In this document: positions 2,638 to 56,701 of the stretch, piece after piece
Numbering within the stretch: position 1 is the stretch's first letter
Layout: the number at the start of each line of letters is the position of its first letter
Source of the DNA: a virus
Direction: 5' to 3' (one strand)
DNA length: 64,000 nucleotides
Virus record (IMG/VR): IMGVR_UViG_3300032213_002237
Span: 1 to 64,000 of that record
Made by a program: the position numbers and the translations under genes
Notes under the pieces: model-generated
The model's input: only the letters and a program-made list of their open reading frames with translations
Database searches by the model: none
What the model was told of the DNA's origin: nothing

Positions 2638-3444
2638 ATGAAAAAAGAATTTGAATTAAGTGTTATATTACCATTAAAGAGCTCATCAGTTAGAGATTTT
2701 GACGAATTTTTTAAAAAAAGTATTGAGTCATTAACTATCCAAGATATATTACCTACTGAACTTATAATTGTTCACTCGGAAGAAGAAAGTTTAATTAATT
2801 ATTTAAACAGTTTTGATTTTGGTAATTTAAAAGTTAATAAAATTAAATTTGATGGAAAACTTAGTTTTTGTGAACAAGTTAATACAGGTATTAAAAACTC
2901 AAAAACTGAATGGAATAGTATTTTAGAATTTGACGATGAGTTTTCTAAAATTTGGTTTAAAAATGTTAGAAAATATTCAGAAATTTATACTGATGTAGAT
3001 GTGTTCATGCCAATCGTTGTTGATGTTGATAATAAATCAGTATTTGCTGGATTTACAAACGAAGCAACATTCGCCGCTAATTTCTCACAAGAAATGGGAA
3101 TATTAACAAATGAAACATTATTAAGTTATCAAAATTTCCAAACTTCGGGAATGGTATTTAAAAAACAAATTGTTGAAGATTTTGGAGGGTTTAAACCAAA
3201 TTTTAAACTGACATTTGCTTACGAATTCTTACTAAGAATGACTTATAACTCAGTTAAATTCATGACAATACCAAGAATTGGTTATAAACATATGAATTTA
3301 AGAGAAGGTTCTATTTTTTGGGAATATAAAAATGGTGAAAATGTGTTAACAGAAAATGAAGTAAAATTTTGGGTTAATACTGCGAAAAAAGAATATTTCT
3401 TTAGCCAAGACAGAAACATAAAATATACACCTGAAAATGTTTGA
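2638..3444 (+). CDS. Glycosyltransferase family 2 (GT-A) protein
   Basis: Family 2-like GT-A transferase, 268 residues from the ATG at 2638. A TTG 12 bases earlier would overlap the upstream gene and is not needed. The N-terminus ELSVILPLKSSSVRDFDEFFKKSIESLTIQ is the usual GT2 nucleotide-sugar strand-loop-helix. A DxD-like acidic stretch (LEFDDEF) lies near residue 100, where the metal-binding motif normally is, and SGMVFKKQIVEDFGGF near 180 resembles the conserved GT2 acceptor region. It abuts the preceding GT-B gene, so the two may act in sequence on one glycan. The stop overlaps the next ATG by one base (TGATG). Confidence 0.78.
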   Translation: MKKEFELSVILPLKSSSVRDFDEFFKKSIESLTIQDILPTELIIVHSEEESLINYLNSFDFGNLKVNKIKFDGKLSFCEQVNTGIKNSKTEWNSILEFDDEFSKIWFKNVRKYSEIYTDVDVFMPIVVDVDNKSVFAGFTNEATFAANFSQEMGILTNETLLSYQNFQTSGMVFKKQIVEDFGGFKPNFKLTFAYEFLLRMTYNSVKFMTIPRIGYKHMNLREGSIFWEYKNGENVLTENEVKFWVNTAKKEYFFSQDRNIKYTPENV

Positions 3445-4181
3445 TGATTTTAAGCGCAACGTCTGTTCAAGATTCTTTAACTAAGAAGAAAAAACCGACT
3501 ACAGAAAATTATTTTGACATAAGAGAAGAAAATGCGGTTAGATTATTTCTAACCGCATCTACTTTTGAGGAAAAAAATAAAATTTATAATGAATTTTTAA
3601 GATTTCCTTTAGATAAGATGATATCCTCGATAATAAGAAGATATAAATTGTATAGAAAAGATATGAATTTTACTGAAATTCATACTGATACACATTCTTT
3701 TTTGATGACAAAAATTGACAAATTTAGTCCGTCAAAAGAAAAGAAGGCTTACTCATATTTTGGGACTATTTGTAAGAATTACCTTATGGGTCAAATATTA
3801 AAAGACCAAAAAGAAACTAATAGAAAAATTTCATACGAAGATATTTCTAGTGATTTAGAAAATAGACCTGAAATGATTTATTATTTAGAACTTGAACCTA
3901 CTCAAGAGTATAATGTAATCCCTATATTAAAAGATTATATTAAAACAACGATAGAAGAAGATGAATTAAATGATAATGAATTAAAATTAGGTTTGGCGCT
4001 TATTGATATTTTAGACAATTACGAAACAATATTTCCAGCAACTGATAATAATAAATTTAATAAAAATGTAATTTTATTATCTATTCGTGAAATGACAAAT
4101 ATGTCAACTAAAGAAATTAGGGCTTCAATTAAAAAATTCAAGAAAATTTACTCTTCGTTAATAGATGTTAAGGAAGAGTAA
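3444..4181 (+). CDS. 55: gp55-like late-transcription sigma factor
   Basis: Likely RNA polymerase specificity factor for late genes, related to T4 gp55. The central part has a region 2-like pattern: an acidic helix followed by KIDKFSPSKEKKAYSYFGTI and CKNYLMGQILKDQKE (about residues 90-125), which resembles the T4 gp55 core in spacing and in its aromatic/basic residues. The C-terminus (about 210-240) reads LLSIREMTNMSTKEIRASI, a helix-turn-helix-like segment that T4 gp55 lacks. I see no T4-style hydrophobic/acidic sliding-clamp tail. Start chosen at ATG 3444, which overlaps the upstream stop by one base. Its probable target is the TATTTAT element found before many genes here. Confidence 0.7.
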   Translation: MILSATSVQDSLTKKKKPTTENYFDIREENAVRLFLTASTFEEKNKIYNEFLRFPLDKMISSIIRRYKLYRKDMNFTEIHTDTHSFLMTKIDKFSPSKEKKAYSYFGTICKNYLMGQILKDQKETNRKISYEDISSDLENRPEMIYYLELEPTQEYNVIPILKDYIKTTIEEDELNDNELKLGLALIDILDNYETIFPATDNNKFNKNVILLSIREMTNMSTKEIRASIKKFKKIYSSLIDVKEE

Positions 4182-12567: not shown

Positions 12568-14469
12568 TTATCTTAATTCATTCAAATCGAATGTACGAAC
12601 ACCATCAACGATGATACGACCATAGAAACGGTTATTAACCATCTTCTTAGCGTAACGTGTCATAATACCCTTGATAGGAGTAAAGTTGAATGGGTTATAC
12701 ATTGTTGGAGTTAATTGTAATGGTACGTATGGAGCGTAGATGTAACCAGTATCCAATAAAGAAGTACCTTTATGACCAATCAACACAGTGTTAGCTGGGA
12801 AGTATGGGTCACGGTATACTTGGTAACGACCACTTAATGTACCAACTCTCTCAATACCCATGTTGAATTGGTCTTGTTCAGGAGCCGCGTTTGATACGTG
12901 GAAGTATTCCAAGTCATCAAAGATAGCACTGATTTCAGAAGATACAACAATCCAGTTAGCTCCACCTCTTAAAGTAGACTTATGGATTTGAGCTGAAATT
13001 TGGTTGATTGCAGTAATCAACGTTTGATTCCAGTCCTTTTGAGTATAAGGAGTTGCTTGGTTGTTCAGACGCTTCCATCCGTTGTAATCCCAACGTAATG
13101 TCCAAGCCGCACCTTTACGTAAATCACGTAAAATTTCACGGTCAATTTCAGCTGCCACTTGCTCAGATAATAAAGCTGTTAATTCAGCCTCAGCATCGAT
13201 GTTGTGGAATGCTGCAACGTCTTGTGCCATTTCAGGAGACCATTGTGCTCTTAATTTTCTTTCTGTAACAGAAACAGTTACTGACTCAAGGTCGAAAGAA
13301 ACTTCACCAATTCTGTCTTCAAATTCTAACTCTTCGTAACGTCTCCAAGCTGCTAAAATGTTAGTGTAAGCGGCACCTGTACCATTGGTAGCTGCCGACC
13401 ATTGACTGTTTGTTAATGAAGAACCTGAATATCCATCAGGAGTTGATTGTCCACATGCAATACATGCAGGAACTTGAGCATCAATCTCTAAATAAATAAA
13501 TCCAGTTTGGCTACATACGTTATCATAATAACCACCGTTACCACCTGTGCTTGAATTACCAAACGCAGCTTGTTGTGAAGTATACTGAGGTCCGTACATT
13601 GCTTGACCATACTTCTGAGTTACAACACGATATAAAAGTGGTGTAAATCTGTTAGTATTCAAGTTAGATGCAACTGTTGAATTGTCAGTATAAAGTACTA
13701 AGTTAGATAAGAAAGATTCTGTATCTTGTTCTTGTCCGTCAGGACCAATTAACTTACCGATACCTGCAGTTGAGAATCCTGATAACGCAACAATAATTTT
13801 ACGATATTCAGTTGTACCTGTAGCATTTTGTCCATTAAGAGTATAACCTGATGGAATTAATGCTCCATTTGACCAAGCAACTGTTGGAGTAGCTGATGTT
13901 AAAGTAACAAATCTACCTTTAGAGTAATCAAATAAACCAGCTGGGTTAAGACCTGGCTCAGTTCCTTCATAGAACAAATCATAAAGATTCTTAGCGTAAG
14001 TTGAGTTGTAAGAACCGTTACCTGAACCGTAACCAGCGTCAGGATTTCCAGGATAGTTTCCAGGAGAACCAACTGGACCGTAATGGTCACCAGATGATAC
14101 ACCAAGACTGTCAGTAACTGAACCTCCAGAATAACCTTGGATTTGTGGTACGAAGTAGAACAATTTACCGATTGGTAAGTTCATAGCTTGTACAGAAACG
14201 ATTTCGTTAGACAATAATTTAGAGAACACACGTCTGATGATAGGGAATACCACAGTCTCGAATGAACCTGAATCTGCCGTAGAAGATGCTTCGTTAATCA
14301 AATGTGACGCTTGGTTTTCATACAATTGTGCAACATTTTCTTTTAGGTGGCCTTTAAGACCTTCAAGGAACCCTAATTTGTCCCATTTGTTTACTGTGTC
14401 TTCTTTGATAACTTTCAAGTGCTTAAGACCGATGTTACCAACTAATCCACTTTCTAATAATGCTCCCAT
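12568..14469 (-). CDS. 23: Major capsid protein (gp23-like)
   Basis: 633-residue major head subunit of the T4 gp23 type; T4 gp23 is 521 residues. The order is as expected: a charged N-terminal region with NKWDKLGFLEGL (compare NKW in T4) near 28-38, then LYENQASHLINE|ASSTAD at 50-66. This gives a predicted prohead-protease cut after Glu60, in the same place as the T4 cut after a [LI]xE motif. Next comes VFPIIRRVFSKLLSNEIVSVQAMNLPIGKLFYF (about 74-107), the gp23 core start. A Gly/Asn/Tyr/Ser-rich insertion (120-165) probably forms a surface loop. Core, DUF4494-like and protease genes follow upstream on the same strand. Confidence 0.95.
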   Translation of the reverse strand: MGALLESGLVGNIGLKHLKVIKEDTVNKWDKLGFLEGLKGHLKENVAQLYENQASHLINEASSTADSGSFETVVFPIIRRVFSKLLSNEIVSVQAMNLPIGKLFYFVPQIQGYSGGSVTDSLGVSSGDHYGPVGSPGNYPGNPDAGYGSGNGSYNSTYAKNLYDLFYEGTEPGLNPAGLFDYSKGRFVTLTSATPTVAWSNGALIPSGYTLNGQNATGTTEYRKIIVALSGFSTAGIGKLIGPDGQEQDTESFLSNLVLYTDNSTVASNLNTNRFTPLLYRVVTQKYGQAMYGPQYTSQQAAFGNSSTGGNGGYYDNVCSQTGFIYLEIDAQVPACIACGQSTPDGYSGSSLTNSQWSAATNGTGAAYTNILAAWRRYEELEFEDRIGEVSFDLESVTVSVTERKLRAQWSPEMAQDVAAFHNIDAEAELTALLSEQVAAEIDREILRDLRKGAAWTLRWDYNGWKRLNNQATPYTQKDWNQTLITAINQISAQIHKSTLRGGANWIVVSSEISAIFDDLEYFHVSNAAPEQDQFNMGIERVGTLSGRYQVYRDPYFPANTVLIGHKGTSLLDTGYIYAPYVPLQLTPTMYNPFNFTPIKGIMTRYAKKMVNNRFYGRIIVDGVRTFDLNELR

Positions 14470-16217: not shown

Positions 16218-16937
16218 TTATTTTCCTAAATAATCGGAAAGTCTTCCCATTAAATCAAGCGATTTGTTAACTGTTCTTGATGCTTTCATTTCATTTTCTT
16301 CTTGTAGGTTCTCCTCAAACGCAAATCTTCCATCAGGTTCAGTAAATAAATAAGCTCCCGGTGTTGATGGTGAAGATACCAAGTCAAAACAAATTAATTC
16401 AAAATCATCTTGAACTTCATTTTGGTCACCTACCTTCTTTAAGGAACCTACCCCTCTTGATGATATACCTAACGTTACACCCAATCTTAATAGATTTGCT
16501 GCTTGGTCACCCTTTGTAGATACGATACCTCTTTCATGGAACCCTGGTGAAGTTAGAAGTAATAGTTTACCTAATAGAACATTACCATCCCACCACATCT
16601 CTGTAATCATGTGTGATACTCTATCTAAATCTATCAACGAAGACTCAGGGTGGTTAAGTTCTGATAAGGCAGTTTTTTTACCAATATAATTTTTTATATA
16701 GTTTTCAGATTCTCTTTTTAGAATTCTTTCAGGATATATTCTACCGTTTCTATTCGGTGTATTATATTTTTGTAGAACGGCATAGAACTCAAATGGTTTT
16801 GAATAATCTTTAAAATCCCTACTTTCTTGTAGAAATGTTTGATTATGTTTTTCTGTTGGGGAAACATAACCTGCATCCATTTCAATTAAAATACCTTTTC
16901 CCGTCTCTTTTGGACCTAATATTTTGTAATTTTGCAT
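16218..16937 (-). CDS. 21: Prohead protease (gp21-like serine protease)
   Basis: 239-residue maturation protease of the T4 gp21 (peptidase U9) type, active inside the prohead. The catalytic His is in ELNHPES (His96) and the Ser in GISSRGVGS (Ser159/160), with FDLVSSPSTPGAY after it, the usual gp21 order. Known gp21 enzymes cut after Glu in [LI]-x-E. That motif appears at the capsid processing point and at the end of many N-terminal leaders in this window. TATTTAT at 16953-16959 on the sense strand is 15 bases before the ATG. Confidence 0.93.
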   Translation of the reverse strand: MQNYKILGPKETGKGILIEMDAGYVSPTEKHNQTFLQESRDFKDYSKPFEFYAVLQKYNTPNRNGRIYPERILKRESENYIKNYIGKKTALSELNHPESSLIDLDRVSHMITEMWWDGNVLLGKLLLLTSPGFHERGIVSTKGDQAANLLRLGVTLGISSRGVGSLKKVGDQNEVQDDFELICFDLVSSPSTPGAYLFTEPDGRFAFEENLQEENEMKASRTVNKSLDLMGRLSDYLGK

Positions 16938-16959: not shown

Positions 16960-17424
16960 CTATACAAATTCTATTTTACTTTCTTTTTTGGTTTTATCGT
17001 TTTTACTTAAATGAAAACTAAAATGATTCGATTTATTAAAAATATCAGATTCTAAACAACTAACAATTTTTTTAAGTGAATTTTTTATTTCAACAGATTT
17101 AAAATCTACAGGTTTTTTAATGAAAAAAGTAATTTCAAGATTCATAAAAGACATTTTCTTTAATGCTATTCCTGAAGTTCGTAAGTCTAAATCAACTATA
17201 AAATTGTCATAGAAAAATTCCACATCAATATAATCCCCGATAGTATTTTTTATTTGTTTATTAAAGTAAGACACAAGTCTTATCCAAGAATTTTCAATAG
17301 ATTTGGGTTCGACCCAAGATTGAATATTTAAGTATATTGATTTAAAATTTTTAGAATCCACTGTTCCATAAGAACATTTTATTTTTTTATACCCTTTAAT
17401 AGAGCAACTTTTTCCTTTTTTCAT
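16960..17424 (-). CDS. Hypothetical head-cluster protein, 154 aa
   Basis: Unrecognised basic protein with mixed alpha/beta composition, no leader and no membrane segment. It lies between the protease and the gene next to the portal, in the place where T4 has small core genes (67, 68), but I see no sequence likeness to them. On its own strand the upstream region reads TATAAATA at 17450-17457, the T4-style late promoter orientation, overlapping the TATTTAT of the divergent bS21 gene. Confidence 0.55.
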   Translation of the reverse strand: MKKGKSCSIKGYKKIKCSYGTVDSKNFKSIYLNIQSWVEPKSIENSWIRLVSYFNKQIKNTIGDYIDVEFFYDNFIVDLDLRTSGIALKKMSFMNLEITFFIKKPVDFKSVEIKNSLKKIVSCLESDIFNKSNHFSFHLSKNDKTKKESKIEFV

Positions 17425-17448: not shown

Positions 17449-17455
17449 TATTTAT
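17449..17455 (+). promoter_or_regulatory. TATTTAT element upstream of bS21
   Basis: TATTTAT 39 bases before the bS21 ATG; its reverse complement gives TATAAATA-like sequence toward the divergent head gene. A weak host-type -7 (TATAGTTG, one mismatch) also lies at 17479-17486. Confidence 0.35.
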
Positions 17456-17494
17456 ACATTAATAATAACACACAAAAATATAGTTGTCAAAAAA

Positions 17495-17680
17495 ATGTTA
17501 ATTATCACAGTTGATAAGGGCGATATTGAAAAATCCCTTAAAAAATTCAAATCAAAAGTTTTAAAAACTAAAATGATAAAGGAATTACAAGACAGAAAAG
17601 ATTATAAAAAAAAATCTGACATGAAACGTCAGATTTTAAATAATGCTATTTATAAAAATTCAAAAAATAATGAATTATAA
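17495..17680 (+). CDS. rpsU: Ribosomal protein bS21 homologue
   Basis: 61-residue phage-encoded small-subunit protein bS21. MLIITVDKGDIEKSLKKFKSKV matches the family start (Ile/Val-rich strand then the LKRFKR-type helix), followed by a second helix rich in Lys/Arg (RKDYKKKSDMKRQILNNAIY). Length is typical for Bacteroidota bS21. The product would join 30S subunits near the 3' end of 16S rRNA. In Flavobacteriia, bS21 with bS18 and bS6 is known to mask the anti-Shine-Dalgarno sequence, so a phage copy could bias initiation toward phage mRNAs (inference). It is a lone plus-strand gene inside the minus-strand head block, overlapping its convergent neighbour by 6 bases. Confidence 0.88.
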   Translation: MLIITVDKGDIEKSLKKFKSKVLKTKMIKELQDRKDYKKKSDMKRQILNNAIYKNSKNNEL

Positions 17681-18385
17681 ATTTTGAGTTAAATTCATTA
17701 GTTTAATATATTCTTTTTTAGAATGTTTTACATTTGTAAGTCTTTCCTTTGTTTCCAGTAAAACTTTAGTTAATTCTTCATCTGATTCTGAAATAAGAGT
17801 GTCAATTTTTTTAATTGCAGTTTCTTTTAATTCTGTAAATTTTGTTTTTAGATTTTCATCATCAGCCATTAAAATTTCTTTAACAGAATTTCTTTCAGAT
17901 TCAGTTAAGTTTTCTAAATATTTTTCAGCAGTCTTATTAGCAACTTTTAACATTGAACTAATTGGGACGTTTTGAGTTTTACTTTCTTTAATTATTGGTT
18001 TTTTACCTAAAGACTCAACAATTGATTTTTTAGCGATTGATTTTTTTTCAGGTTTTAGTAAGTCACCATAAAATAACTCATCAATTGTTTTGTATTTGTT
18101 TTCAAGAACAATATCTTTAGTCCAACTTTTAATAAAACTTACTGTATTTTCAGATAATTTAATTTGTCTAAATTCACTAGTCAAATCGTCAACTAAATAA
18201 GTTGCGGTTTCTTTATCTAATTCTTTATTTTCTTTTAAATTATCATATATTGACATTAATTTACAAAAATCACTATTTTTAAGTAATTTTCTTTCAAAAA
18301 GTCTCATATCAGTTTTAAGAGTTCCTTTAACAAAGGAATCAATTAATTTATTTTCTACTAATGTTTTTATTAATCCGAATCTCAT
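17675..18385 (-). CDS. Hypothetical helical head-cluster protein
   Basis: 236-residue Lys/Glu-rich, largely helical protein directly downstream of the portal gene. Length, charge and position suit a prohead core or portal-associated assembly protein, but I do not recognise it. Possible [LI]xE sites occur inside (LISE, LLETKE), as expected for a core protein that is digested. TATTTAT at 18402-18408 precedes it by 16 bases. Confidence 0.6.
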   Translation of the reverse strand: MRFGLIKTLVENKLIDSFVKGTLKTDMRLFERKLLKNSDFCKLMSIYDNLKENKELDKETATYLVDDLTSEFRQIKLSENTVSFIKSWTKDIVLENKYKTIDELFYGDLLKPEKKSIAKKSIVESLGKKPIIKESKTQNVPISSMLKVANKTAEKYLENLTESERNSVKEILMADDENLKTKFTELKETAIKKIDTLISESDEELTKVLLETKERLTNVKHSKKEYIKLMNLTQNL

Positions 18386-18408: not shown

Positions 18409-20247
18409 TCAACTTTTAAGTAGTTTATCTAATTGATTACCCATTTCCCCTAAAGATTCTTGAACACGACTTAAATCAATTAATTCATCTTCATTTAACA
18501 TTCCTGTATTTTCTAATAATATATTAAGTTCCGAATTACGGGTATACGACCCTTCAGGTACTGTTGGTGCCGCTTCAGGTGGAGCTGGTGCTGGTGACGC
18601 CGGAGCTTCAGGTGGAGTACTTTCACCACCTCCAAAATCACTCATTCCACCATCTGGTGGAGCTCCTCCACCTTCTGATGGAGTACCAGCCGGTTCACCT
18701 TCTTTTTTACCATACAACTTATCAAGATTATCAAATAAACCTGTGTGAGTAATAACTTCAGCAGTTTTCTTAAGTTCTTCACCAACAGCTCTTTCAATAC
18801 GTTGTTGTTGTAAGTCAAGTTTAATTTCTTCATCAGAAAATCCAAGAATATGTTTCTTAGCCCATGACATAGATACTGCGGCAATACCACTACCAGGGTC
18901 AGCAACCATATCTTTATATAGAAGAATTTTTTCTTTCCATACATCAATCTTCATCAAATCAGCTTGAGTTGATGGATTTGTTAAACTTAAATTAAAGTTT
19001 GATATTTCATCTTCAAATCCTAAAATAAATAAATGTATAATTGCAATTTTATTTAATTCAGAAATCATATTTTTTTGAATTCTGTTAATAGTTCTTGCAA
19101 AACGAATATCTTGTAATGATAAGTTCTTACCATCACCAACAGTTTCTTCAAATCCTAAAAACGCTTTAGGAACACGAAGAGCTGTTAATAATTTCTTTTG
19201 AATGTACTCAATGTCGGCAATTTCTGATAAGTTCTGAGCACCTGCTAATGTTTCAATAGGACTTGCTTGTGCGGTATCTCTAACAGGAACAAAATAATCT
19301 TGGTCAACTGCCATCTGATTAAATCTCATATCAACATTACCTGTCTTATGGTCAACCGTTTGACTTCTCTTAAACTTATTGGCAAATCTTTGGATATATG
19401 GTTCAACATCAGCATCGTCCATGTTTCCAACGAATACTTTAAATACACGTCTTTCAGGTGCTCTTGATGTTCTATAAATTAACATCGCATCTTCAGATAA
19501 CAATAATTGTTTCCAAATACGACGAGCCTTTTCTAACATAGAAGTTCCGTAAGGAAGTCTTCTATCATCACCAAGTAATCTAAAGTGAGCAATTTCCCAA
19601 GTATTGAACTCTAAATCCTTTTGCTTCCATTTAAATTTCAAATGTTTCTTTTCAGGATTTGTTGTTGAATCTGTTGAGTGCGCTCCCATACCCGCCTCCA
19701 ATCGTTCAATCTCGATGATTGGTAATTGCATACATCCTATAATACCTTTTTCAGGGTCTAATTTAAGATATACAAAATTATCACCATATTTACATGTGTT
19801 TCTTATCCACATAGGTAAATTGGTATTGATGTCTAGTGCGTTATTAAACAAATCACCGAGGATTGATTTAATTCTTGATGATTCAGAATAAATTTGTAAC
19901 ATAAAACCATTTTGGTCAATGGTTGTAGATTCTTCGGCGTAAATGTCTAAAGCTGCTCCAATTTCAGGTGTAAATTCCATTGACTCATAGTCATAGAATG
20001 ATGATAATCTGGTTGGTTCATAAAAAACCGCCTGTGTGTATAGATTATTTTCAATTCTACCCCATTGGTTTGCTAAATAATATGTTTGTTGTGCCTGAAG
20101 TTTTTCTCTTTCATATTCAGACTTAGAGGTTGTTTTTAATAACTCACTCTTATCATATTTGTATGTAGGATAATCCTGTCCCAAAAGAGAATTGGGTCCA
20201 AATGTTTGGGATAACCGTTGCCATACCGTTAGTTTATTTTCACTCAT
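18409..20247 (-). CDS. 20: Portal vertex protein (gp20-like)
   Basis: 612-residue portal, the dodecameric channel for DNA at the head vertex; T4 gp20 is 524 residues. Recognisable gp20 features include YDYESMEFTPEIGAALDIYAEEST near 84-107, WIRNTCKYGDNFVYLKLDPEKGI near 150-172, and the wing/stem region with RAPERRVFKVFVGNMDDADVEPYIQ followed by LRVPKAFLGFEE. The extra length is a low-complexity Gly/Pro/Glu C-terminal tail (about 520-575) that T4 lacks. It lies between the terminase-side genes and the protease, as in T4. TATTTAT at 20256-20262 is 8 bases before the start. Confidence 0.95.
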   Translation of the reverse strand: MSENKLTVWQRLSQTFGPNSLLGQDYPTYKYDKSELLKTTSKSEYEREKLQAQQTYYLANQWGRIENNLYTQAVFYEPTRLSSFYDYESMEFTPEIGAALDIYAEESTTIDQNGFMLQIYSESSRIKSILGDLFNNALDINTNLPMWIRNTCKYGDNFVYLKLDPEKGIIGCMQLPIIEIERLEAGMGAHSTDSTTNPEKKHLKFKWKQKDLEFNTWEIAHFRLLGDDRRLPYGTSMLEKARRIWKQLLLSEDAMLIYRTSRAPERRVFKVFVGNMDDADVEPYIQRFANKFKRSQTVDHKTGNVDMRFNQMAVDQDYFVPVRDTAQASPIETLAGAQNLSEIADIEYIQKKLLTALRVPKAFLGFEETVGDGKNLSLQDIRFARTINRIQKNMISELNKIAIIHLFILGFEDEISNFNLSLTNPSTQADLMKIDVWKEKILLYKDMVADPGSGIAAVSMSWAKKHILGFSDEEIKLDLQQQRIERAVGEELKKTAEVITHTGLFDNLDKLYGKKEGEPAGTPSEGGGAPPDGGMSDFGGGESTPPEAPASPAPAPPEAAPTVPEGSYTRNSELNILLENTGMLNEDELIDLSRVQESLGEMGNQLDKLLKS

Positions 20248-22452: not shown

Positions 22453-24198
22453 TTATCTTCTTCCTCCGAATAACCATAAATAGTTTTCGTAGTCGCTTTT
22501 TGTTGCCTCTCGTTTAATGTTTTCTTGTTGTTGGGGAATTACCGGGTCCATGAATTGTCTTCTATTAAATTCATTTGTATTAACAGTCCACGAGTCAATC
22601 ATCGCTTTTGTTTGATTTGTAACCTTATTAAGTGATGTAAACGATGTTTCACCAACATAAAGAGCCATGGCAACTGACATTATCAAGTCATCATGTTGTC
22701 CCTTTTGATGGTCAGGTCTTCCATTTACATAAATAAATGTATTCATCTCATTTAATAAACGAGTTGAGTTTATTTTGAATCCATGTCTTAAATATTCTTC
22801 AAATGTTGCAATAATTTGAACTCTTTTAGCGTTAAAGTTAATTCCTGGTATTTTTTCAGTCGCCTTTGGGTCAAATTTCCATTTGTTTGATACATCAATA
22901 CCGTCAACATACATGTTTCTATAACCCAACTCTCTCAATCTTAAAGATGTTGTTACACCCATACCACCAGTAATATCTATTACAATAAATGCGTTATACA
23001 TATTACCCCATTTAAAACATATTTCCGCCAAAGTATCAGGAGGAAGTTTTCCAACGTACTCTGCAACTTGTTCTCTTGTATCAAAATCAACAATTTGAAA
23101 TGTTGAGAAATCCTCACTATCTCCACGAGATACGTCGACACCCATAATATATTTTTTACCCATTTCAGGTTCTTTCCAAATCCAAAGTCCTCCACCCATC
23201 ATCTTTGTTGATGGTTCTTTAACCATATTCACCCTTAAATCTTCCAATAAATCGGAATTAAATACGTTATCACCCGAACCAAGAAACGCACATTCCAATT
23301 CCTGATTGACCTTACGTTTATCGTATTTAAGTTTTTTAACCATTGACTCATACCAAGAAGAACTTGGTTTGTACCCCTGAGTAATCAATTGTCTTATTTC
23401 ATCAAAGTTCTTTTCTTTGTTGTTATAGTCAATAATTTCAACATTTGGGTATTCATTACGATTTAAATAATAATGGATAACATCTTTAACATTAATTAAA
23501 GATAAATCTTTTGCATATCTTGGGTCTTTCCACCAAACCATTTCGGAAACTTTAAATTCATTCATTCCCTTTAACGCTTGGTCATAAATTTCATAATAGA
23601 TTGCGTCATATCCGTTTGGTGTTGATACAACTATTACCTTACCACCTGTGGATAAGGATGCCATACAAGCGGCCCAAAAATCATCGTCAGCATCAATATA
23701 CGCAGCTTCGTCAAATATTAATATTGTTGGTGTATAACCACGAAGAGCATCCTTAGATGTTGCAACTGCTTTAACTTCACATCCATTTGTTAATTTAAAA
23801 TGTCTTTGTGAGTTTTTTTCAGCAGAAAAACCAACACCAACCCAACTAGGCCATTGTTCTGTAAATCCTCTAATTTTATTAGCAACCTCAACTGCAGTAT
23901 CTAACTTGTTAGCAATAACTAATATCTTTTCAGGACTATTCTTTTTAGCAAAAACAAGTTTTTTTGATGACCAAGCGGCAGTTACTGTAGATACACCAGC
24001 CTGTCTATACTTTAGTGCAATATTTTCATTATAGTTTTCATAATCCTCAACCAAACTAATTTGGTCAGGAAATAATTCTAACGGGACATACTTTTGAACA
24101 GTGTTGTCATATGTCTGTAAATAAGTTTTAAGGGCGTATGGTGTTGATTTCATACACTTAGCATACTCCATTAAAACGGCTTCTTTAGATAAACTCAT
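22453..24198 (-). CDS. 17: Terminase large subunit (gp17-like)
   Basis: 581-residue DNA-packaging motor with ATPase and nuclease parts. ATPase: adenine/Q region near 36-46, Walker A-like RQAGVST at 65-71, Walker B ILIFDEAAYID at 159-169, and coupling motif VVSTPNG near 190. Nuclease: RNase H-like acidic residues in MGVDVSRGD (Asp355), VIDITGG (Asp408) and HDDLIMS (Asp503/504). This is the gp17 layout, with length close to T4's 610. Sense TATTTAT lies at 24204-24210, 5 bases before the ATG. No small terminase was recognised in the window. Confidence 0.95.
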   Translation of the reverse strand: MSLSKEAVLMEYAKCMKSTPYALKTYLQTYDNTVQKYVPLELFPDQISLVEDYENYNENIALKYRQAGVSTVTAAWSSKKLVFAKKNSPEKILVIANKLDTAVEVANKIRGFTEQWPSWVGVGFSAEKNSQRHFKLTNGCEVKAVATSKDALRGYTPTILIFDEAAYIDADDDFWAACMASLSTGGKVIVVSTPNGYDAIYYEIYDQALKGMNEFKVSEMVWWKDPRYAKDLSLINVKDVIHYYLNRNEYPNVEIIDYNNKEKNFDEIRQLITQGYKPSSSWYESMVKKLKYDKRKVNQELECAFLGSGDNVFNSDLLEDLRVNMVKEPSTKMMGGGLWIWKEPEMGKKYIMGVDVSRGDSEDFSTFQIVDFDTREQVAEYVGKLPPDTLAEICFKWGNMYNAFIVIDITGGMGVTTSLRLRELGYRNMYVDGIDVSNKWKFDPKATEKIPGINFNAKRVQIIATFEEYLRHGFKINSTRLLNEMNTFIYVNGRPDHQKGQHDDLIMSVAMALYVGETSFTSLNKVTNQTKAMIDSWTVNTNEFNRRQFMDPVIPQQQENIKREATKSDYENYLWLFGGRR

Positions 24199-29393: not shown

Positions 29394-31457
29394 ATGACAG
29401 ATTCAGTTGAAGAAGGTGGGAAACTACCAAAAAAAACAGAGGTTAATTCAAGTACACCTGTTTTAGACAATTTTAGTCGTGACCTTATTAAACTTGCCGA
29501 AGAAGGTAAGTTAGACCCCGTTGTCGGTAGGGAAGACGAAATATTACGTATTGCTCAAATTCTTTCAAGAAGAAAGAAAAACAACCCAATTATCATCGGT
29601 GAACCTGGTTGTGGTAAGACGGCAATTGTTGAGGGATTGGCGATGAAGATTTTTGAAGGTGATTGTCCAAGAAACTTGGTTGACAAACGTATTCTTTCAT
29701 TAGAAATGAATTCAGTTGTTGCAGGAACAAAGTATCGTGGTCAATTTGAAGAGCGATTAAAGGTTATCTTGGAAGAAATTCAAGCAAACCCAAATGTTAT
29801 TCTATTCATTGATGAAATCCATACCATTGTCGGAGCGGGTAACGCCTCAGGTTCCATGGACGCATCCAACATCTTAAAACCAGCATTATCGAGAGGTGAA
29901 ATACAGTGTATTGGAGCTACTACATTGGATGAGTATAAAAAACAAATTGAAAAAGACGGAGCGTTGGATAGACGTTTCCAAAAAGTAATTGTTAGTTCAT
30001 CAACAAAAGAAGAAACATTACAAATCCTTAAAAATGTTAAAGACAGATATGAAAATTATCACAAGGTAAACTATACCGATAGTATTCTACAAATCTGTGT
30101 TGATTTAGCTGAACGATATATTACGGACAGAGAGTTTCCTGACAAGGCATTTGATATTTTGGATGAAGTCGGAGCAAGAGCTCAGGTAGATGTGAAAAAT
30201 CCTGAAATAATTGACGAATTAAAACGTCAAGCGTTAGAGATTAAACAACAAAAATTACTTGTTGTTAAAAAACAGAATTACGAAGAAGCTGCAAACTTAA
30301 GAGATAAAGAAAAAAAAGTTTTATCACAACTTGATATTGAAAAGAAGAAGTTTGAACAAACTTTATTAGATAATAGAAAAACAATTTCTGAAGAATTGGT
30401 TTACGAGGTGGTGTCAACAATGACAAAAATACCTTTAACAAAACTTAATTTAGATGATAAGATTGCTCTTATTAATTTAGAAGAAGAATTAAATAAATCG
30501 GTTATCGGACAAAAAGAAGCGGTTACAAAGATTGCGAAATCTATTCGTAGAAATAGATTAGGTATCAAAGACCCAAATAAACCAATTGGTTCATTCATAT
30601 TCTTAGGTTCAACAGGTGTTGGTAAGACGTTATTAGCAAAAGAATTGGCAAAACAAATTTTTGGTAGTGATGAAAATCTTATCCGAGTTGATATGTCTGA
30701 ATACCAAGATAAACATACCGTATCTCGTTTAATTGGTTCACCTCCAGGTTATGTAGGGTATGACGAAGGTGGACAACTTACAGAACAGGTAAAGACCAAG
30801 CCATACTCTGTGGTATTATTTGACGAGGTTGAGAAAGCCCACAAAGACATATTCTCAGCATTACTTCAACTATTGGATGAAGGTTATATGACGGATAGTT
30901 TTGGAAGAAAAATCAATTTCAAAAACTGTCTAATCATTATGACATCAAATCTTGGGGTGAAAAAGATGCAAGAATTTGGAGCAGGTGTTGGATTTAGTAA
31001 GAATGGTAATGTTTACGCTAATGAAGAACTTAAGAAAACAATGTTAAACAAAGAATTGAAGAACCACTTCGCACCTGAGTTTATCAATCGTTTGGATGAG
31101 GTAATTGTATTCAACACACTTCAAAATGACGATATTCAAAAGATTGTTTTGGTTGAGATTAACAAATTGAAATTTCGTTTGTCAAAATTGGGATACAACA
31201 TTAACTTCGGTCAGTCAGTAATTGACTTTGTTTCAAAAGTTGGATTTGATGATGTTTACGGAGCACGTCCTTTGAAAAGAGCGATTCAAGAAAAGATTGA
31301 AGACTATATTTCAGATGAAGTATTACGTGAAAAAATTGTAATGGATAAGTCCTACAATATTGAAATCAATGATGAAGAAGTGTCAATATCAGAAGTTGAA
31401 GCCCAACCTGATGAAACACCAAAAGTGAAAAGACCAAGAAAGAAAAAGGGGGAATAA
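29394..31457 (+). CDS. ClpC/ClpA-type AAA+ unfoldase lacking the N-domain
   Basis: 687 residues from ATG 29394; a TTG 45 bases upstream is less likely. Two AAA+ modules: D1 has Walker A GEPGCGKT (69-76) and Walker B LFIDEIH (137-143), D2 has Walker A GSTGVGKT (405-412) and Walker B VVLFDEVEKAH (473-483). A UVR-like segment (KKQNYEEAANLRDKEK, about 292-307) lies between them, as in ClpC. VGF at 532-534 sits where ClpC/ClpA carry the ClpP-docking loop, which ClpB lacks, so it should feed host ClpP. The double Clp N-domain is missing, removing adaptor docking. No clpP is in the window. A tmRNA lies 2 kb downstream. Confidence 0.9.
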   Translation: MTDSVEEGGKLPKKTEVNSSTPVLDNFSRDLIKLAEEGKLDPVVGREDEILRIAQILSRRKKNNPIIIGEPGCGKTAIVEGLAMKIFEGDCPRNLVDKRILSLEMNSVVAGTKYRGQFEERLKVILEEIQANPNVILFIDEIHTIVGAGNASGSMDASNILKPALSRGEIQCIGATTLDEYKKQIEKDGALDRRFQKVIVSSSTKEETLQILKNVKDRYENYHKVNYTDSILQICVDLAERYITDREFPDKAFDILDEVGARAQVDVKNPEIIDELKRQALEIKQQKLLVVKKQNYEEAANLRDKEKKVLSQLDIEKKKFEQTLLDNRKTISEELVYEVVSTMTKIPLTKLNLDDKIALINLEEELNKSVIGQKEAVTKIAKSIRRNRLGIKDPNKPIGSFIFLGSTGVGKTLLAKELAKQIFGSDENLIRVDMSEYQDKHTVSRLIGSPPGYVGYDEGGQLTEQVKTKPYSVVLFDEVEKAHKDIFSALLQLLDEGYMTDSFGRKINFKNCLIIMTSNLGVKKMQEFGAGVGFSKNGNVYANEELKKTMLNKELKNHFAPEFINRLDEVIVFNTLQNDDIQKIVLVEINKLKFRLSKLGYNINFGQSVIDFVSKVGFDDVYGARPLKRAIQEKIEDYISDEVLREKIVMDKSYNIEINDEEVSISEVEAQPDETPKVKRPRKKKGE

Positions 31458-33476: not shown

Positions 33477-33871
33477 GGGGATGTTTTTGGATTTGACAGG
33501 TATGAATCTGTCATAAAACGCACGTCGGGGCTAAACTAACCCTGTAAAACTGGTTTAAAACACAAACGGCAACACAATTGCAAAACTTTCTACACTCGGT
33601 TTAATCCGTACTGAAGAAGTAACTGTAGCCTAATCTAAGATTAGTATACAACGGGGTCGGTGAGCATATAACCTTGCAACAGAAGCTTGTACTGTGGTGT
33701 GGTTTCTATCCGAAAAGGAACAAAGTGGAGGATTAGTTCTCAGTAAACCGAACCACTATAAAATAAGGGAATTGTGAAGTTTCGGATTGTTTAGAAAAAC
33801 AATGACCTAAACGTGTAGTGTTTTATGGTCGACATATTTGGACCGGGGTTCGAGCCCCCGCATCTCCACCA
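33477..33871 (+). ncRNA. ssrA: tmRNA (transfer-messenger RNA)
   Basis: 395-base tmRNA for ribosome rescue and tagging. The acceptor strands GGGGATG (33477-33483) and CATCTCC (33861-33867) pair, with G3-U70, the alanine identity wobble. The conserved D-region GGATTTGAC follows, and the T-arm CGGGG-TTCGAGC-CCCCG is perfect. The CCA end is encoded. The tag frame probably starts at GGC 33568 after the typical AAAC, reads GNTIAKLSTL...EEVTVA for 21 codons and stops at TAA 33631. GN-type starts are known in Bacteroidota tags, but the usual ending ALAA is replaced by a longer peptide ending VA. Host-type promoter upstream, terminator directly downstream. tmRNA is rare in phages. Confidence 0.93.
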
Positions 33872-53888: not shown

Positions 53889-55679
53889 TTAAGAATAAAT
53901 TCCTTGACTATAAATTTTCCATTCTTTTTTTCGTCTGTCTTCGTATGGAAAATCAATAAAATGTTGTTCAACATTTCGTAAATTATTTGGATTATTTTTT
54001 AACGCTGCTGATAAATTTGGAGCTTCTTTTGTACAACCATCAAATCCCATTTGATAACATAATGAACACATCGCGTCTAATTGTTGTTGACTTAAGTTTG
54101 GGTATAAATTAAGTATTTTTTTTGCGTTTTTGTTTAATGTGTTTTTCATTAATTCTTTTGCCTTTGTTTCGGTAATATCAGGGTCATTAGGTTTAACAGG
54201 TATTCCACCAGGATAATACGTTGTACCATAACCTATTGTTGCCTTTGCTCCGGGAGTTGGGGATTTTCCTCTTAAACAACAATCAGGTTCTTTTCTCACA
54301 CATTTACCACCTTTAGCGTCGTCATAAACACACTTAACAAAAAACTCAATATTCGCTACAAAATTTACAAGTTTATCTGAAACTGTTCCGACCCCAACTG
54401 TATTTGAATTTGATGACTTTTCTTTTGCAATTTTTGCAATTTTTTTAGCACCAGCTTTAACTGCATCAACAGCACCTCCTGAATTTGGTGTCATTTGGTC
54501 TTTTGATGGTGCCATAGAAGACCATGTATTCATTAAATTTGATTCTTCTTTTTTATCATCAGAACCAAAATATTTGTTATAGAAATCCATAGTCGATGTT
54601 TGCTCATTAATATTTGGTCTTAAAACCGTCATAGCCTCAGGGAAGTCTTTGTTTAAAACATCCTCATCCTTATTTGTGTAAGGAATGTTTTGTAAAACGT
54701 ATCTAATTGAGTTTAGACCTGAAATCTTTTTATCGTTAGAATCCAAAACAACCCACGGATGATTCACTGTAGATGTCTTATCAAAAAGTTTTTGTTTATA
54801 TTCTGTAAACTTTTCCCACACATCTTGCATCTTCTCATCATTCTCAGAATACTTCCAATATTTCAATGGTGACTTCTGTCTGAAATCAAATCTCTTAGCT
54901 TGAGTTTCTTTATCTATTGAGAACCAAAGTTTAAATAAGTAATCCCCATCAACAACCAATGATTCTTCAAAATCCTGAACATTATCCATAAAGTCTTCGT
55001 ACTCTTCTGACGAACCATAACCCATTACAGGTTCAACTAATCCTCTATTGTACCAACTTCTATCAAAGAAGTTTATCTTACCTTTTTCAATTTGATTACT
55101 GTATCTATCCCACCAGTTCTTTCTTTCATCAGGTGTTGGGATACCAAGAGCAATAACTTTATAATATCTTGGATTTAAATTTTCAGTGAATTTCTTAATT
55201 GTAGAACCTTTACCTGCCGAGTCTCTTCCTTCAAAAACAATTATAACAGTTTTACCTGTTTGTTTTAACCATTCCTGTAACTTTAAAAGTTCAACCTGTA
55301 GAAAAAATATTTCTTTTTTATAAATGTCTTTATCTAAAATTGATGGTTCTTCTTCAGGATTAACAACTTCTTTTTTATTTTTTCTTTTTTCTAATGATTT
55401 AGTTAGTTGTTTGAAAAATTCAAAAACATTAATATCTTTGTTACCTTTTAACTTTAAAGTTTTTAAAACACCTCTTGTTATTAATCCAAAATCAACCAAA
55501 CCGTCTTTTGAGTAATCATCAATTTTATTAATAAATTTTTGAATTTGAGCACTATACACTTTATTATCTTTTAAAACTGAAACAAGATATTTTATTTCAG
55601 GGCTATATTTTGGCTTATCGGCCTCTTGTAAACCCATCATGTTTTTCATCTTACTAACTTCAGTCAATAAATTCCTCAT
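53889..55679 (-). CDS. Polyphosphate kinase 2-lysozyme fusion with leader
   Basis: 596 residues. Leader MRNLLTEVSKMKNMMGLQE|AD (cut after Glu19). PPK2 domain (about 120-345): Walker A EGRDSAGKGS (150-159), lid/Walker B FFDRSWYNRGLVEPVMG (204-220), KxxRFxxRxxxPLKYWKYSENDE. PPK2 enzymes move phosphate between polyphosphate and nucleotides. After a linker with a second I-N-E (Glu359) comes a GH24-type lysozyme (about 432-596): Glu445 in NIEFFVKCVYDDA, TIGYGT (481-486), and LSQQQLDAMCSLCYQMG. An inserted Cys-rich loop (KCVRKEPDCCLRG) sets it apart from T4 lysozyme. Two sense TATTTAT copies precede the ATG. Confidence 0.88.
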   Translation of the reverse strand: MRNLLTEVSKMKNMMGLQEADKPKYSPEIKYLVSVLKDNKVYSAQIQKFINKIDDYSKDGLVDFGLITRGVLKTLKLKGNKDINVFEFFKQLTKSLEKRKNKKEVVNPEEEPSILDKDIYKKEIFFLQVELLKLQEWLKQTGKTVIIVFEGRDSAGKGSTIKKFTENLNPRYYKVIALGIPTPDERKNWWDRYSNQIEKGKINFFDRSWYNRGLVEPVMGYGSSEEYEDFMDNVQDFEESLVVDGDYLFKLWFSIDKETQAKRFDFRQKSPLKYWKYSENDEKMQDVWEKFTEYKQKLFDKTSTVNHPWVVLDSNDKKISGLNSIRYVLQNIPYTNKDEDVLNKDFPEAMTVLRPNINEQTSTMDFYNKYFGSDDKKEESNLMNTWSSMAPSKDQMTPNSGGAVDAVKAGAKKIAKIAKEKSSNSNTVGVGTVSDKLVNFVANIEFFVKCVYDDAKGGKCVRKEPDCCLRGKSPTPGAKATIGYGTTYYPGGIPVKPNDPDITETKAKELMKNTLNKNAKKILNLYPNLSQQQLDAMCSLCYQMGFDGCTKEAPNLSAALKNNPNNLRNVEQHFIDFPYEDRRKKEWKIYSQGIYS

Positions 55680-55876: not shown

Positions 55877-56701
55877 ATGAAAAACACAGAAACTTACAAC
55901 GAGTTAGTTCAAAAAATGAGAACATTCTTCCAAAACAAAGGTTTTAAAGAAGTTCCAACCCAATCAAGATTGTCAATCTTGGCAGCGTGTGAAAATCCAC
56001 ACTCAATAACAACATTTAATTATCAAGGAGAAGTTTGGCCACTACCACAGACGGGTCAAATGTGGTTAGAATACGAACTTCTTAAGAATCCTGAATGGAA
56101 TGGTGTTTATTGTATTTCAACGTCTTATAGACAAGAAAAAGACCCAATTCCAGGTCGTCATGAAATGATTTTTCCAATGTTTGAGTTCGAATCAAAAGGT
56201 GGGATGAAAGAAATGTTAAAACTTGAATCTGAACTTTTAGATTATTTAGGGTTTGATTCACCTGTAGAAGTTAACTACGATGATGTATGTGAAGAGTACG
56301 GTGGGGTTTCAATTTTAGAAAACGAACACGAAACAAGAATGTGGGAAGAAAAAGGACCAGTAGTATCATTACAGAATTTCCCATACAGAACAAATCCATT
56401 TTGGAACATGAGAGAAAGTGAAAACAAAATATTCAACAAAGTTGATGTAATTCTTTACGGACAAGAAACAATTGGTTCGGCTGAAAGAAGTTCTAACGTG
56501 GAAGAAATGAGAAATAATTTCTACACAATAGAAAATGGAAAATATTCTGAAAAACTATTTGAGCTATTCGGTAAAGAAAGAGTTGAGAAAGAATTAGAAG
56601 AATTTTTATCACACAATTTCTTCCCACGATTTGGTGGTGGTATCGGAATGACTCGTTTATCAAGAGCTTACGAATTACTACAACAAGAAGTTACAGTATA
56701 A
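55877..56701 (+). CDS. Class II aaRS-like catalytic-core ligase (Asx-type)
   Basis: 274 residues with class II aminoacyl-tRNA synthetase motifs: motif 2 SYRQEKDPIPGRHEMIFPMFEFE (about 93-115) and motif 3 FFPRFGGGIGMTRLSRAYELL (about 247-267), closest in pattern to the Asp/Asn/Lys group and to asparagine synthetase A. There is no OB-fold anticodon-binding domain, so it probably does not charge a full tRNA like AsnRS; it may aminoacylate or ligate a small molecule or modify a protein. No promoter of either class is clear; the leader region is A-rich. A terminator follows at once. Confidence 0.78.
   Translation: MKNTETYNELVQKMRTFFQNKGFKEVPTQSRLSILAACENPHSITTFNYQGEVWPLPQTGQMWLEYELLKNPEWNGVYCISTSYRQEKDPIPGRHEMIFPMFEFESKGGMKEMLKLESELLDYLGFDSPVEVNYDDVCEEYGGVSILENEHETRMWEEKGPVVSLQNFPYRTNPFWNMRESENKIFNKVDVILYGQETIGSAERSSNVEEMRNNFYTIENGKYSEKLFELFGKERVEKELEEFLSHNFFPRFGGGIGMTRLSRAYELLQQEVTV

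Follow-up and report, generated by a model that had tools for sequence, protein, structure and literature searches.

A bS21 gene without an extended Shine-Dalgarno sequence lies antisense in the T4-type head block of a phage group

The window, a 64,000-nucleotide stretch of an 84,199-bp IMG/VR record, encodes a phage copy of ribosomal protein bS21 (rpsU) that is under purifying selection, retains the conserved aromatic residue of this protein, occupies a conserved antisense position among the phage head genes and has no Shine-Dalgarno (SD) sequence before its start codon (Table 1). On balance, we favor the reading that this bS21 enters the 30S subunit, keeps it in its normal SD-independent state and is made outside the feedback control of the host. 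The arrangement itself has been published by Chen et al. 2022 (ISME Commun., PMC9723584), who described it in 47 Bacteroidetes phages, a group from lakes, with the aromatic residue conserved at position 54. New here are the lack of an extended SD at phage rpsU, the bS21-minus relatives that keep the neighboring gene g154, the TATTTAT motif and the tmRNA.

Table 1. Positions of the features discussed, numbered from the first base of the window.
Feature	Position	Strand	Evidence
gp55-like protein, possible late sigma factor (weak match)	3444..4181	+	phrog_234 E 4e-4
Major capsid protein (gp23-like)	12568..14469	-	PF07068 E 4.4e-72
Prohead protease (gp21-like)	16218..16937	-	PF03420 E 9.4e-27
g154, conserved divergent neighbor, no function assigned	16960..17424	-	bS21 at 66 of 78 g154 loci; fold model
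TATTTAT, candidate promoter element of late type, 39 nt upstream of rpsU	17449..17455	+	Motif search
rpsU leader next to start, no SD	17470..17494	+	Pairing with 16S tail +0.4 kcal/mol
TTTTGAC box, probably g154 control region	17486..17492	-	Similar box in bS21-minus relatives
rpsU, phage bS21, 61 aa	17495..17680	+	PF01165, PDB match, alignment, dN/dS
g236, conserved convergent neighbor, no function assigned	17675..18385	-	Locus comparison
Portal protein (gp20-like)	18409..20247	-	PF07230 E 1.6e-75
Terminase large subunit (TerL)	22453..24198	-	PF03237 E 3.1e-12; phrog_2 E 6.7e-40
Large AAA+ protein	29394-31457	+	
tmRNA, tag AKLSTLGLIRTEEVTVA	33477-33871	+	tmRNA search
Polyphosphate kinase 2-lysozyme fusion	53889-55679	-	
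Class II tRNA-synthetase-like protein	55877-56701	+	

The rpsU reading frame matches PF01165 (E 2.5e-10) over profile positions 2-54 of 55, scoring 40.3 bits (cut-off 27), and is the single bS21 match in the source record, in agreement with the clear bS21 homologue named in the preliminary description of this DNA. Its translation is MLIITVDKGDIEKSLKKFKSKVLKTKMIKELQDRKDYKKKSDMKRQILNNAIYKNSKNNEL. In comparisons with 12 relatives, dN/dS of the phage gene was 0.08-0.37, with substitutions chiefly at third codon positions; the frame is intact, and purifying selection is acting on it. The PDB match of the protein was F. johnsoniae bS21 (7jil), and Y53 aligns with F. johnsoniae Y54, the Bacteroidia-type aromatic. 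This aromatic residue stacks on the 3' tail of 16S rRNA, and in Flavobacteriia bS21 helps to occlude the anti-SD; the anti-SD-occluding aromatic is retained in the window's protein. Position 54 was aromatic in 88 of 88 distinct phage bS21 proteins (81 Tyr, 5 Phe, 2 His). Phage and host proteins differ consistently at positions 21, 23, 24, 27 and 28, which largely matches Chen et al. 2022 (PMC9723584), and the window's protein shares with the phages of that study both the aromatic at position 54 and the divergence from host bS21 near 21, 23 and 28. The location in the head block is compatible with a role away from the ribosome, for which the bS21 fold would be only the starting point: the protein might be packaged, a possibility raised by Chen et al. 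(PMC9723584), or act on RNA or on host defense. We regard such a role as very improbable, as phage bS21 has no added domain and retains the conserved residues of bS21, including aromatic 54.

From about 12.57 to 29.31 kb, bS21 is the sole gene on the plus strand, so the earlier picture of one plus-strand gene inside a minus-strand head region of ~17 kb holds. This region is a T4-type head block in which homologues of gp17, gp20, gp21 and gp23 are all present; its TerL, portal, protease and capsid genes are homologous to those of T4, although T4 has no bS21 at this position. The bS21 start lies 70 bases from the divergent g154, and the ends of g236 and rpsU overlap by 6 bases. As in the phages of Chen et al. 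2022, bS21 runs against the TerL-portal-protease-MCP block that surrounds it and has a hypothetical gene on either side. The two conserved hypothetical genes flanking the window's bS21 may correspond to the two families of that study, g154 probably being its bS21_CN neighbor. The complete genomes of that study measure 293-331 kb; records of the window's relatives reach 240-294 kb, compared with 84,199 bp for the window's own record.

Viral scans seeded with the phage bS21, a small bS21 alignment, F. johnsoniae bS21 and g154 yielded considerably more than 100 loci. Head genes of the window occurred at 103 of 106 bS21 loci, where 676 of 676 hits lay on the strand opposite bS21, and this placement is conserved across relatives whose TerL identity to the window goes down to 57-58% (full-length matches). 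At 66 of the 78 g154 loci with enough sequence bS21 was present, always divergent and 64-108 bases from g154; the remaining 12 had an empty slot, g154 coming next after g236. bS21 was not found in five bS21-minus records (one of 261 kb) with the Pfam model, which also missed one phage copy (L317) that was found by a phage-tuned model. The g154 tree requires three changes in bS21 presence or absence, at least two of which are forced by well-supported branches. Taken together, this tree and the empty slots suggest that bS21 was probably ancestral in the phage group and was then lost several times, at least two to three. Losses of this number would suit a passenger gene that brings the phage no benefit, but we consider that highly improbable given the purifying selection on rpsU and an antisense placement that stays fixed while TerL diverges.

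The fold of g154 is well modeled (pLDDT 86.8). No significant fold match was found among PDB structures and nothing over cut-off in Pfam; one significant match was obtained, to the unnamed phage protein A0A8S5L9A5 (E 3e-9). A role for g154 as a dedicated partner of bS21, for example as a host-bS21 protease, was rejected as a strictly coupled function, since g154 is present without bS21 at 12 of 78 loci; a protease acting on host bS21 is a speculation put forward in PMC9976891.

Across 125 starts of the 84-kb record, the mean dG of pairing to the 16S tail was -1.33, compared with -1.24 for shuffled sequence, and 104 of 200 shuffles were as low. In the T4 control the mean was -6.33 against -3.94, with 0 of 200 shuffles as low. 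The starts therefore largely lack SD sites, as first described: they resemble shuffles, whereas T4 has SD sites and is strongly enriched. SD z-scores were -0.8 for bS21-plus relatives, 0.0 for bS21-minus relatives, 0.4 for the cultured Flavobacterium phage immuto (MW353175), -2.1 for Flavobacterium chromosomal genes and -9.6 for T4. Immuto resembles the window in the order of its T4-type head block (portal 34% identical), its SD-less starts and the TATTTAT motif, but gave no bS21 or g154 hit; among INPHARED phage records, tblastn with bS21 or g154 found no relative. Since bS21-minus relatives, immuto and Flavobacterium genes are about as SD-less as bS21-plus relatives, the architecture of the starts is not linked to the presence of phage bS21. 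SD-less starts are a trait of the host phylum, independent of phage bS21, and repeated loss of bS21 was accompanied by no visible change in start sites. The bS21 type and the SD-less starts would fit a Bacteroidetes host.

These comparisons bear on the proposal, made in the preliminary description, that phage bS21 tunes ribosomes for phage mRNA. Chen et al. 2022 (PMC9723584) had already published the idea, as a hypothesis in which ribosomes are redirected by phage bS21, and in its full form bS21 would shift mRNA selection toward short-leader or leaderless late phage transcripts over those of the host. The consistent phage-specific residues (21, 23, 24, 27, 28) and a late-type promoter motif near starts throughout the phage group point in its direction. 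However, phage and host starts are both SD-less, the same architecture is found in bS21-minus relatives, and bS21 has been lost repeatedly. An adaptation of ribosomes to start architecture is not upheld by bS21-minus relatives (z 0.0) and immuto (0.4) that are as SD-less as the rest, and we regard specialization of the ribosome as unlikely.

The motif in question, TATTTAT, occurs upstream of 44 genes against 7.8 expected, and its gaps to the start codon cluster at 4-8 and 14-18 nt. It lies within 40 nt of the start in 42 of 125 genes, with a gap of 4-8 nt in 20 of these, and so corresponds to the promoter-like element that had been described 4-8 bases from many starts; examples precede the starts of the genes at 22453, 18409, 45514 and 46132. 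In each related group 37-56% of genes are preceded by it, compared with 20% in immuto, 14% in T4 and 1-3% at random positions. In T4, TATAAATA stands 14-28 nt before starts and precedes the late genes; TATTTAT dominates in the window's group as TATAAATA does in T4. The motif of T4 late promoters is a -10-type element. If TATTTAT is such an element, its positions imply short leaders of about 0-13 nt, which would leave little or no space for an SD. At rpsU the assignment of a promoter is uncertain, because the sole candidate is 39 nt off and shares bases with a conserved block upstream of the divergent g154. A GTCAAAA box before phage rpsU was also considered as an rpsU control element and rejected; a similar box persists where rpsU is absent, so it more likely belongs to g154.

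Autoregulation of rpsU in F. johnsoniae works by way of an extended SD, which is read by ribosomes that lack bS21 (McNutt et al. 2023, PMC9976891). When bS21 or its C-terminus is missing, ribosomes start translation of SD-less mRNAs inefficiently but that of the SD-bearing rpsU well (PMC9976891). The phage gene encodes a homologous protein with the same conserved aromatic but lacks the extended SD needed for this autoregulation. Pairing of about -13 kcal/mol or stronger was taken to define the extended SD of autoregulated Bacteroidota rpsU, and the window's leader, at +0.4 kcal/mol, does not reach it. Among 89 distinct phage rpsU leaders the median was 0.4 and the best -7.3 kcal/mol, with 0 of 89 at -13 or below. 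This result was robust to three versions of the 16S tail and to a 40-nt search, and the leaders paired no better than their own shuffles. By comparison, 58 of 58 distinct Flavobacteriales rpsU leaders were at -17.5 kcal/mol or below. In a phylum-wide host sample (n=70), 61% were at -13 or below and 76% at -7 kcal/mol or below, and 39% had no strong SD at rpsU. We found no report that phage rpsU lacks an extended SD in the literature searched, which takes in few subscription journals. The comparison separates two ideas, in that start architecture does not follow phage bS21 while the absence of the autoregulatory signal marks every phage copy found.

All phage copies fall in one clade of the bS21 tree (support 99/91), and the 89 leaders are consequently not independent but represent one evolutionary case. 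For the same reason no specific host emerges from the tree, the use for which it had been suggested at the outset. The three host bS21s nearest the phage clade, which sit on long branches, likewise lack an extended SD; phage rpsU may thus never have had one, the signal being possibly absent already when the gene was acquired. An inherited absence of this kind would also be compatible with a reading in which phage bS21 simply made up an exchangeable protein when host expression is off or host bS21 is attacked, with the missing SD giving no regulatory advantage. bS21 is readily exchanged (PMC6375957) and is required for SD-less initiation in F. johnsoniae (PMC9976891). We judge replacement under host shut-off to be quite unlikely, however, as the extended SD is absent uniformly over 89 divergent leaders and host shut-off in these phages is an assumption.

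In the explanation that we favor, a working bS21 made by the phage gene would join host 30S subunits, in all likelihood at a late stage of infection; in related phages, bS21 and the late structural genes are expressed together (Chen et al. 2022, PMC9723584). The bS21 of pelagiphage HTVC008M enters E. coli ribosomes (Mizuno et al. 2019, PMC6375957). Both proteins are phage-encoded bS21, but phage and host differ, and ribosome entry was shown for the HTVC008M protein while the window's bS21 is known from sequence. Because the aromatic residue is kept, phage bS21 should maintain the state that is normal for Bacteroidota ribosomes, with the anti-SD hidden and initiation SD-independent. Such a state would serve phage and host mRNAs alike and create no new mRNA specificity. 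As the phage rpsU mRNA has no extended SD it should escape the host feedback, and its synthesis would not fall as ribosomes fill with bS21, while the filled ribosomes would translate a host rpsU that bears an SD only at a low level. Ribosomes would stay bS21-replete and anti-SD-sequestered through heavy late synthesis. The feedback-escape argument would hold only for a host with the extended SD at its own rpsU, and the phage may face a host that lacks this feedback. As rpsU autoregulation has already been worked out in F. johnsoniae, the regulatory difference is directly testable there.

Two candidate phage copies were set aside. The IMG/VR contig L166 was left out of the phage set because its protein and leader nearly match a bacterial genome locus (L237); although listed as viral, it is probably misclassified or chimeric. 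L265, a second bS21 of the bacterial genome G089 that lies near the phage clade, was rejected as a prophage copy, as it is surrounded by ordinary chromosomal genes and adjoined by an rpoD-like gene. In G089 (L268 and L265), this second bS21 gene beside the rpoD-like gene is SD-less; L238, the genome's other bS21 gene, is preceded by a strong SD.

A tmRNA scored over the family cut-off in 15 of 15 large relatives examined, including one bS21-minus relative. The tags readable in nine relatives end in GLIRTEEVTVA or close variants, an ending shared with the window's tag, and no tag was obtained with ARAGORN for the remaining six, most of which scored lower. These phage tags differ from those of nine Bacteroidota genomes, which are GENNYALAA or similar, ending in AA. 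SmpB was found in 1 of 9 records searched. The phage tag may mark proteins in a way that host proteases read differently. A broader scheme, in which feedback-free bS21 saturates ribosomes, silences SD-dependent host rpsU and pairs with the non-host-tag tmRNA as a late takeover set, seems to us doubtful. The large AAA+ protein of the window combines two ATPase domains with a D2-small domain of the ClpB type and might serve as a partner of proteins tagged by the tmRNA. Elsewhere in the window, a polyphosphate kinase 2 domain is fused to a phage lysozyme domain in a single open reading frame, and a class II tRNA-synthetase-like protein of 274 aa is shorter than a full synthetase.
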